From Gammaproteobacteria bacterium (GTDB taxonomy: Bacteria; Pseudomonadota; Gammaproteobacteria; Pseudomonadales; Halieaceae), in contig JAUIEP010000009.1 in assembly GCA_030428835.1 (NCBI GenBank), forward strand, positions 1-64,000: a stretch of 64,000 nt of DNA. Direction: 5' to 3'. How positions within the stretch are numbered: the first letter of the stretch is position 1; every line of letters begins with the position of its first letter. The notes below the pieces were generated by a model. It was given only the letters and a program-made list of their open reading frames with translations, searched no databases and was not told where the DNA came from. Below, one piece after another: positions 32,341 through 35,581 of the stretch. A program made the position numbers and the translations under genes.

Positions 32341-33264
32341 TCAATCCAGGGGGCGGCCGGCCATACGGGCGCGGCGCTTTTCGACGGCGGAGATATTGGA
32401 CGTAATAGTCGGCATATGGCCCATGTACATGAAATCGGCGTTCGCCATGACCTTGTCGTGCCCGTGAATAGCCTTGTACTGCGCCCGGAACTCCGCCAGC
32501 TTCGCCTCCCGGACCTCCCCGCTGGAATTCGTGGTCGTACCGCCGTGCAACTGGTGGAAACTGCCCTCGCCGATGACCTGTACGGGCGTGACCCCCGGGG
32601 CCTCCATCGCCTTCTTGAAGATATCGAGATTGAGGAACCCACCGCCCGGCAAATCGAACGCCTCGTCGGCACCGCCCAGGGACTCAAAGAGCGCGCGGCG
32701 CAGGAACAGGCAGTTCGACTCGAACATCTTGTTGAACCAGTGCAGGCGCTTGGCGCCCGAACGCAGCGGTGTGCCGATTTCATAGAGCCTGTAACCGTCG
32801 GTCGGCCACGCAATGCGCTCGAGCAACTCGTCCTCGACCTGCTTGTTGTAGCCGTTGTCGACGCTCACGGTCTGTTCTTCCATGCCCAGGTAGAAATACC
32901 GGATGGCGATGACCGGCTCGGCAAAGGCGGCATAGTTTGACAGCGCCATCTTGAACACCCCGGGAGTCAGCAGGTGCGCGCCGTCGATCATAAGGCAGAG
33001 CACTTCACCGCGCGCCTCGCGCAGTGCCCGGTTGATGGCCTGGGCCGGCGATGGGTGGGCGTCGTCGATGCGGATCAGGCGGACCGGTGTATCGACATGG
33101 GCCCAGGTGGCGGGGTCGAGGGGTTCGGGCGACCCGTTATCGACCAGCAGCACCTCGTACTCGAGTTGCGCCATATCGGTCTGGTAAGTGCGCGCAAGGC
33201 TCTGCAGGGTACGGGGAATCTCCCGCGCCATATCGTAAGAAATAAGGATAATGGAAAGTTTCAT
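32341..33264 (-). CDS. GT-A-type glycosyltransferase, paralogue A2
   Basis: Highly similar to the 31438-32331 product (MKLSIILISYDMAREIPRTLQ ... CLMIDGAHLLTPG ... FHQLHGGTTTN). Confidence 0.75.
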   Translation of the reverse strand: MKLSIILISYDMAREIPRTLQSLARTYQTDMAQLEYEVLLVDNGSPEPLDPATWAHVDTPVRLIRIDDAHPSPAQAINRALREARGEVLCLMIDGAHLLTPGVFKMALSNYAAFAEPVIAIRYFYLGMEEQTVSVDNGYNKQVEDELLERIAWPTDGYRLYEIGTPLRSGAKRLHWFNKMFESNCLFLRRALFESLGGADEAFDLPGGGFLNLDIFKKAMEAPGVTPVQVIGEGSFHQLHGGTTTNSSGEVREAKLAEFRAQYKAIHGHDKVMANADFMYMGHMPTITSNISAVEKRRARMAGRPLD

Positions 33265-33375
33265 TACAACGAGGAGTAGTGCGCCCGGGTTGCAGCCGCG
33301 CCGGCCGTTATTTATATAGTGGCCAATAGTAGAGAAAAACCCTCTGCCTTAGTAGCCGCGTTGCGCGACCAACGC

Positions 33376-33402
33376 GCGGAAGTGTGACCGGTTACACGCC
33401 CC
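33376..33402. repeat. 27-bp direct repeat, copy 1
   Basis: gcggaagtgtgaccggttacacgcccc; contains near-palindrome GTGTGACCGGTTACAC. Confidence 0.7.
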
Positions 33403-33410
33403 TGAATGCC

Positions 33411-33437
33411 GCAGAAGTGTGACCCCGCACACGCCCC
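33411..33437. repeat. 27-bp direct repeat, copy 2
   Basis: gcagaagtgtgaccccgcacacgcccc; 22/27 identical to copy 1, offset 35 bp. Confidence 0.7.
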
Positions 33438-33444
33438 GACCCCC

Positions 33445-33458
33445 TTGATCTCCATCAA
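33445..33458. promoter_or_regulatory. FNR/Anr-type box
   Basis: TTGAT-CTCC-ATCAA, exact match to TTGAT-N4-ATCAA; TATGAT (33482-33487) downstream gives a predicted TSS about 42 bp from the box centre. Confidence 0.7.
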
Positions 33459-33608
33459 TGTCCGGACTTTGTGTCAGACTATATGATCAGGCAACTTGAG
33501 TGGCAACACGCCAGTCGGGAACCCGCGACAGCAGGCCTTTCGGGTTCGACGCCCACGGGCAAATAACATAGACTTTTGAAGGTTTTACGCCCTTTTTCCG
33601 GAGCTGCC

Positions 33609-34586
33609 ATGACAGCCTTTCAATTGAGCAGGGAGAGCATCGAGGCGCGCGACCCCGCGGCGGACGCCCAGACCCTCGCGCAACGTATCGAGGCCTTCCG
33701 CGACATCGAGCCGCGCGACGCGCCCGACCTGATCATCGGCGCCGACAAGACGCCGGCCGCGCCCGGGGATGTCTGTATACCCGTCATCGACGCCGCGGAA
33801 CTCACCGCCACGACACTCAGGAATGCGGTGGTCGATCACGGCGCGTTGCACGTCAAGGGCCTGTTCGACCCCGCTACCCTGACACCGCTCATTCCGGCCA
33901 TCGACAATGTCCTGGACGCCGTGGCCAGCCCGCGCGAGGAGCGCGCAAAGTTTGCCGCCCACTACTTCAATCCGCCGTCCAACCTCGTGTCCATCATGCC
34001 CGAGAAGGCCATGGAACTCGGCAGCCTGAGGCTGTTCGGCACGGCTTCAGGCTCCGCCATGTGTGTCGAGGCACCCAGCATCGCCGAATCCCTCCTCGAA
34101 CTGTACGAGAGCTACGGGCTCAAGGAACTTGTCACCGACTACCTGGGTGAGGCGCCCTGCCTGTCGGTCAAGAAATGGGTGCTGCGCCGCTCGGTGCTGC
34201 CGGTAGAGGAAAACGGCTGGCACCAGGACGGCGCATTCATGGGCACCGACATCAATACGATCAACCTGTGGATCCCGCTGACCACCTGCGGCGGAGACAC
34301 CGGCGCGCCGGGGATGGATCTCGTGCCCGTGCGGCTGAACAAGATCGTCTCGGCACAGGGCGCGACATTCGACTGGTCGGTCAGCGACGATGAGGTGCAT
34401 GCAAGTTTCGCGGGCAGTGAGCCGGTCGCCCCCGTGTTCGAACTCGGCGATGCCTTTTTCTTCGACCACTTCTACCTGCATCGCACACAATACCGCGAAC
34501 AGTTCACGGACCTGCGCTACGCCGTGGAGACCTGGTTTTTCGGCGCTTCCGCATTTTCCAAGTCACAGGTACCCATCGCCTGGTAG
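33609..34586 (+). CDS. Phytanoyl-CoA dioxygenase (PhyH)-like Fe(II)/2OG oxygenase 1
   Basis: GWHQDGAFMGTDINTINLWIPL (HxD) and FFDHFYLHRTQYR (distal His). ATG at 33609 preferred over the ORF-track start. Confidence 0.82.
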   Translation: MTAFQLSRESIEARDPAADAQTLAQRIEAFRDIEPRDAPDLIIGADKTPAAPGDVCIPVIDAAELTATTLRNAVVDHGALHVKGLFDPATLTPLIPAIDNVLDAVASPREERAKFAAHYFNPPSNLVSIMPEKAMELGSLRLFGTASGSAMCVEAPSIAESLLELYESYGLKELVTDYLGEAPCLSVKKWVLRRSVLPVEENGWHQDGAFMGTDINTINLWIPLTTCGGDTGAPGMDLVPVRLNKIVSAQGATFDWSVSDDEVHASFAGSEPVAPVFELGDAFFFDHFYLHRTQYREQFTDLRYAVETWFFGASAFSKSQVPIAW

Positions 34587-34606: not shown

Positions 34607-35581
34607 ATGACAGCTTTCGAACTCACCACCGAACACATCGAGCAACGCAATACCGCCACGGACTGCGCGCGCATGGGCACGCGTATCGAGGAGTACCGCA
34701 CGCGTGAAGCGCGCGACAACCCGGAGCTATTGATCCGGGCGGAAGCATCACTTGCGGCGCCGGCGGGAGAAATACCCGAGATCGCTGCGCAGGAACTCGA
34801 TGCCGGAATCCTGGGCGAAGCGATCAAGCGCCACGGCGCATTGATTGTGCGGGGGATGTTCCCGGCTGCCAGCATGGCGACCCTGCGCCAGGCGGCAGAC
34901 AAGGTAATCGATGCCTGCGCGGACCCCGAAGCCGACAAAACTGCGGCTCGCGGCCACTACTTCAATCCACCGAACAACCTGCGCTCCATCATGCCCAACA
35001 AGGATCGCGAACTGGGCAACACACGCAATTTTCATCGCACCTCCGGCTCGGCCATGTGTGTCGAGGCCCCCTCGGTAGCCGAGTCGTTGCTGGAACTGTA
35101 CGAGCAGCACGGCCTGAAGGAGCTGGTGACACAGTACCTGGGTGAGGCGCCGTGCCTCTCGGTCAAGAAATGGGTGCTGCGCCGCTCCCTGTTGCCGGTC
35201 GCCGAAGCGGGCTGGCACCAGGACGGCGCGTTTATGGGTACAGACATCAACACCATCAACATGTGGATTCCGCTGAACGAGTGCGGCGGCACGACCGGCG
35301 CGCCGGGTATGGACGTTGTGCCGCAGCGACTCTACGGCATCGCCTCCGCGGAGGGCGCGCAATTTGAGTGGTCGGTGAGTGACTCTCACGTGCAGGGCGA
35401 CTTCGCGGGCAATGAACCGACCGCGCCCGTATTCCAGGCCGGCGATGCGTTCTTTTTCGATCACCTGTTCCTGCACAGGACACAGTACCGTACCGATTTC
35501 ACCAGGACCCGCTACGCGATCGAAACCTGGTTCTTCGGCGCAACGGCCTTCCCGAAAAACCAGATCCCGCTGGCCTGGTAA
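34607..35581 (+). CDS. PhyH-like Fe(II)/2OG oxygenase 2 (tandem paralogue)
   Basis: GWHQDGAFMGTDINTINMWIPL, FFDHLFLHRTQYR; collinear similarity to the upstream gene. Confidence 0.82.
   Translation: MTAFELTTEHIEQRNTATDCARMGTRIEEYRTREARDNPELLIRAEASLAAPAGEIPEIAAQELDAGILGEAIKRHGALIVRGMFPAASMATLRQAADKVIDACADPEADKTAARGHYFNPPNNLRSIMPNKDRELGNTRNFHRTSGSAMCVEAPSVAESLLELYEQHGLKELVTQYLGEAPCLSVKKWVLRRSLLPVAEAGWHQDGAFMGTDINTINMWIPLNECGGTTGAPGMDVVPQRLYGIASAEGAQFEWSVSDSHVQGDFAGNEPTAPVFQAGDAFFFDHLFLHRTQYRTDFTRTRYAIETWFFGATAFPKNQIPLAW

Follow-up and report, generated by a model that had tools for sequence, protein, structure and literature searches.

Can a regulator that acts when oxygen is low govern genes whose products need oxygen? 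The question is raised by an intergenic region in the 64-kb stretch of DNA analysed here (the window), which comes from a marine, Halioglobus-type member of the Halieaceae. In this region a perfect FNR/Anr-type palindrome is flanked by a divergent glycosyltransferase gene on one side and by tandem PhyH genes on the other. The answer favoured below, at a probability of roughly 0.5, is that this box is a real, lineage-specific FNR site that would form part of an accessory low-oxygen promoter, P2, upstream of a second promoter, P1. This figure, and the likelihoods that are given in words for the other readings, are matters of judgement and not computed posteriors. The kind of regulation involved is already known, whichever reading is adopted.

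Layout of the divergent locus

The genes around the box are arranged as described in the initial annotation: two PhyH genes on the plus strand and a divergent family-2 glycosyltransferase gene on the minus strand (32341–33264). PhyH1 (33609–34586, plus strand) encodes a PhyH-family Fe(II)/2OG dioxygenase that scores over the Pfam PhyH cut-off and keeps the HxD, H and R residues. PhyH2 (34607–35581, plus strand), also assigned to Pfam PhyH, is a tandem paralogue that is 64% identical to PhyH1 in alignment. The iron triad and the 2OG-binding arginine (H205, D207, H291 and R303) are invariant in the alignment and are kept in both proteins. A comparison of PhyH1 with solved structures, carried out by sequence, found no resemblance.

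The two elements reported for the intergenic region were both confirmed by direct reading: the exact box TTGATCTCCATCAA (TTGAT-CTCC-ATCAA) at 33445–33458, which is assigned to neither strand, and a TATGAT hexamer at 33482–33487 on the plus strand. A pattern search for TTGAT-N4-ATCAA returns this single perfect match in the window and three in the whole 5.23-Mb genome. TATGAT starts 23 bases past the box and, by comparison with the geometry of the conserved FNR promoters of the genus, is the candidate −10 element of the putative FNR-dependent promoter P2. Transcription is predicted to start at 33493–33494, which places the box centre at −41.5 to −42.5. Class II FNR positions of −40.5 to −42.5 are documented (PMC3688515), and the arrangement is like that of the FNR-activated class II promoters of Escherichia coli (dmsA, narG and ydhY type), which likewise combine TTGAT-N4-ATCAA, some 42 bp ahead of the start, with a TATAAT-like −10 element. 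Unlike these promoters, the window has O2-dependent oxygenases as targets and a second, conserved promoter downstream, and its start site and FNR binding are predicted from sequence.

A tandem 28-nt direct repeat is present at 33375–33437 (plus strand), its copies spaced 35 nt apart and each containing the near-palindrome GTGTGACC..ACAC, and it is possibly an operator for another regulator. Perfect matches to GTGTGACCNSKNACAC are confined, genome-wide, to the two copies of this repeat, and a partial match to the repeat motif (AGTGTGACCGGT, on the minus strand) is found in the same intergenic region of a relative, G013.

The region also harbours a sigma-70-like site on the minus strand, TTGCCA-17-TATAGT (33478–33506), with the box just downstream of its predicted start. 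This site is the basis of an improbable reading in which the box serves the divergent glycosyltransferase gene: FNR bound downstream of the minus-strand promoter (33506–33478) would repress a long transcript at low oxygen. The site is the sole promoter-like match in the intergenic region, agreeing at 10 of 12 positions where shuffled sequences yield a mean of 0.1 such matches, and the box would be centred at about +20 relative to its start. However, conservation of the minus-strand site was not seen, and its use would require a leader of about 207 nt. Closer to the glycosyltransferase gene, 58–67 nt upstream of its start, is a conserved block, ATAGTAGAGAA (33326–33336, minus strand, in plus-strand letters), whose pattern ATA[G/C]TAGAGAA is present in all five aligned intergenic regions; this block is the likelier, and indeed the probable, core promoter of that gene.

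FNR in the genus and the expectation by chance

The genome does not lack an FNR-family regulator, an absence that would have told against the box. It encodes FNR (C257:6541–7296; L003 1601–2359, minus strand), which keeps the CxxCxxxxxC pattern and a fourth cysteine, the ligands of the [4Fe-4S] cluster, as well as the recognition motif E-T-V-S-R, and which matches a solved FNR with E = 1e-69. The fnr gene adjoins hemN and ccoN. Eight of the 18 genus genomes have FNR, hemN and ccoN together, and another nine lack all three, with neither an FNR orthologue nor any match to hemN or ccoN that passes the family cut-off; judging from these presence patterns, the three have been gained or lost as a set within the genus. 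In G004 (C1:1032035–1032680) the fnr homologue is split across two overlapping frames, and matches to ccoN and hemN above the family cut-off are missing from this genome as well.

A second FNR-like protein (L004 949–1770), 38% identical to FNR, has all four Fe-S cysteines and E-T-x-S-R; elsewhere in the genus genomes only G013 has one. Its presence lends something to the reading, regarded as very improbable, that another CRP/FNR-family protein such as this one may use the box for a different signal, and the sites of Dnr and Anr cannot be distinguished (PMC5398030). Yet G013, with its relative of the second protein, has a PhyH promoter devoid of the box.

The baseline for chance was provided by the same half-sites separated by other spacer lengths; these spacer controls replaced a reversed-pattern control, which was set aside because its half-sites, AACTA/TAGTT, are likely rare for compositional reasons. 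Against this baseline the main rival can be weighed, which is judged quite possible but short of even odds: the box would be a chance match or a never-used site in extra, unconserved DNA, and the PhyH genes would be driven by P1 only, with no FNR control. The genome contains three perfect boxes, where each of the other spacers gives about 1.4 (P ~0.17, not significant), and one of the three, which sits beside fnr, is accounted for by the fnr/cco cluster. Furthermore, relatives that lack FNR have as many perfect boxes per genome. The perfect boxes are intergenic in three out of three cases, as compared with 6 of the 22 that have a different spacer and an expectation of about 0.55, these intergenic fractions being approximate as the gene calls come from a simple codon model. 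The bias has P ~0.018 for all three boxes and ~0.10 when the fnr-side box is left aside. In the genus as a whole, the enrichment of spacer 4 is 2.06-fold for the eight FNR-bearing genomes and 1.18-fold for nine FNR-lacking ones (Fisher P = 0.0035); this roughly twofold enrichment, confined to FNR-bearing genomes, shows that a real FNR regulon exists in the genus. Chance is nonetheless expected to account for about half of the perfect boxes in FNR-bearing genomes. The box in the window thus stands somewhat above chance, not decisively so. In E. coli, 63 of 187 predicted FNR sites were actually bound (PMC3688515).

The chance reading has to contend with a perfect, intergenic box that has a −10 element near the right offset. 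A panel of 20 boxes, picked among those lying upstream of genes (hemN, the cco neighbour, OmpW, Rieske and other genes, the KshA box of the same genome included), revealed at least four of six matches to TATAAT exactly 22 nt after the box in 10 cases, with no other offset close. The TATGAT of the window, which matches TATAAT at five of six positions, is located at 23 nt, one base off the usual offset. A match of this quality at offsets 21–23 accompanies 2 of 39 boxes in FNR-lacking relatives, which are presumed to be chance occurrences, and 4 of 29 sites in FNR-bearing genomes, the window's own included. The genus's own hemN and cco-cluster promoters share the box with the window, and their −10 offset is almost identical to that of the window. 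This spacing is the strongest point in support of the interpretation offered in the initial annotation.

Conservation upstream of PhyH1

PhyH1 relatives are found in 15 genus genomes, that of the window included. Among named genomes, those of Halioglobus, Haliea and Halieaceae MAGs come closest; a search of named genomes for further orthologues yielded five loci, all among those already found. The same divergent glycosyltransferase–PhyH pair is present in four relatives, of which G013, G014 and G015 bear FNR and G010 has the gene pair without it. The box is missing from all PhyH1 orthologues: no match with up to one mismatch occurs within 500 bp upstream of any syntenic orthologue, and the best match in G013, G014 and G015 has three mismatches. 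Absence of the box from relatives with the same gene pair had been named beforehand as an outcome that would refute its role, and the box is missing from four out of four. A match with two mismatches at −165 in G006 (L028) was considered as a conserved trace and rejected, as it abuts a separately conserved block, ATTGTACTGCA, and the sister genome is without it.

That such a comparison has the power to reveal a retained site is indicated by hemN, the positive control, upstream of which a box with up to one mismatch is kept in seven of eight genomes; the genome of the window has two mismatches there (TTGACGCAAGTCAA). The hemN box is therefore conserved across FNR-bearing genomes, whereas that of the window is not. 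The relatives are only about 52–63% identical at PhyH1, a divergence over which a real site may have turned over.

What the orthologues do share upstream of PhyH1 is a different element. The pattern [A/T/G]TCGAC-18-TAnnnT is found 59–66 nt before the PhyH1 ATG in most of them, with a probability of about 2.5% of arising by chance in a 200-nt upstream region; in the window it corresponds to the promoter P1, made up of TTCGAC (33545–33550), 18 nt and TAGACT (33569–33574) on the plus strand. A global alignment that placed the promoter of the orthologues against the box region was rejected, because the TTCGAC-18-TAnnnT pattern and the distance to the start codon identify 33545–33574 as its counterpart. 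The conservation of P1 across the genus, as deduced from these comparisons, favours the chance reading. If P1 is the main promoter, transcription would start at about 33581; the box, then at about −129, would not be in any of the positions from which FNR usually activates.

The spacing of the conserved elements tells in the same direction. The ATA[G/C]TAGAGAA block and P1 are separated by 219 nt in the window versus 87–107 nt in G010, G013 and G014, from which it follows that the box and TATGAT reside in additional DNA of about 115 bp that has no counterpart in relatives, adjoining the tandem 28-nt repeat. With the box absent from relatives, and a different promoter conserved in them, the box would be at most a recent, species-specific addition. 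The original interpretation is supported in part. As regards the class II geometry, the TATGAT spacing falls within one base of that of the genus's FNR promoters, but the conserved promoter is elsewhere and the start site is a prediction. In sum, the perfect match, the intergenic position and the good spacing favour function; the absence of the box from relatives, the other promoter that they do conserve and the number of boxes in the genome favour chance.

Oxygenase genes and the FNR regulon

The pairing of an FNR-type regulator with oxygenase genes had been called unexpected, an assessment that appears overstated. In Pseudomonas aeruginosa, Anr, likewise an FNR-type protein, raises O2-using functions when oxygen is scarce, and its micro-oxic targets include cbb3 oxidase, hemN and, reportedly, hemF; the Anr sites have been demonstrated experimentally, whereas that of the window is predicted from sequence. 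Control of hemF by Anr is reported in the title of Rompf 1998. The cbb3 oxidase, which consumes oxygen, is a standard Anr target activated at low O2 (PMC12403760).

The window is not alone in this genus in having an FNR box at an oxygenase gene. A Rieske ring-hydroxylating oxygenase gene is preceded, 148–172 nt upstream (148 nt for L214), by a box with up to one mismatch in three of three orthologues (L214 in G015, L215 in G002 and L216 in G009), which are 81–100% identical; more distant Rieske paralogues (up to 57% identical) have no box. This is a better-supported link between FNR and an oxygenase than the box of the window. The third perfect box of the window's own genome (L208, G000 C59:14185–14198) precedes a KshA-type Rieske gene by 120 nt. 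The orthologue of this gene in G015 (L212) has a one-mismatch box at −131; the orthologues in G009 and G002 are without a box, and the upstream sequence in G016 is too short to count. Perfect FNR boxes are also found beside OmpW genes (L182 in G013 C29 and L205 in G015 C12), and an FNR box is likewise known at E. coli ompW (PMC4886647).

A broader proposal, which is tentative and rather unlikely as a whole, places O2-consuming oxygenases under positive FNR control in those members of this Halioglobus-type genus that bear FNR. The resulting regulon would serve for micro-oxic compensation; it would comprise the Rieske oxygenase in three species and, in the species of the window, both the PhyH pair and the KshA-type Rieske gene, with the PhyH site recently recruited.

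Under the favoured reading of a lineage-specific FNR site, P2 would consist of the box and TATGAT, with a start at about 33494, upstream of the P1 of the PhyH1–PhyH2 pair. As oxygen drops, Fe-S FNR would bind the box in the class II position, some 42 bp ahead of the start, and increase transcription of the dioxygenase genes; the higher expression would probably offset the scarcity of the O2 substrate, and P1 would supply basal, ancestral expression.

If the site does not work, the locus illustrates that a perfect box with a good −10 element can still go unsupported by relatives. FNR-bearing and FNR-lacking members of one genus offer a natural comparison. If the site does work, it would represent a clear case of a low-oxygen regulator recruited, in one lineage, to the genes of oxygen-requiring enzymes.
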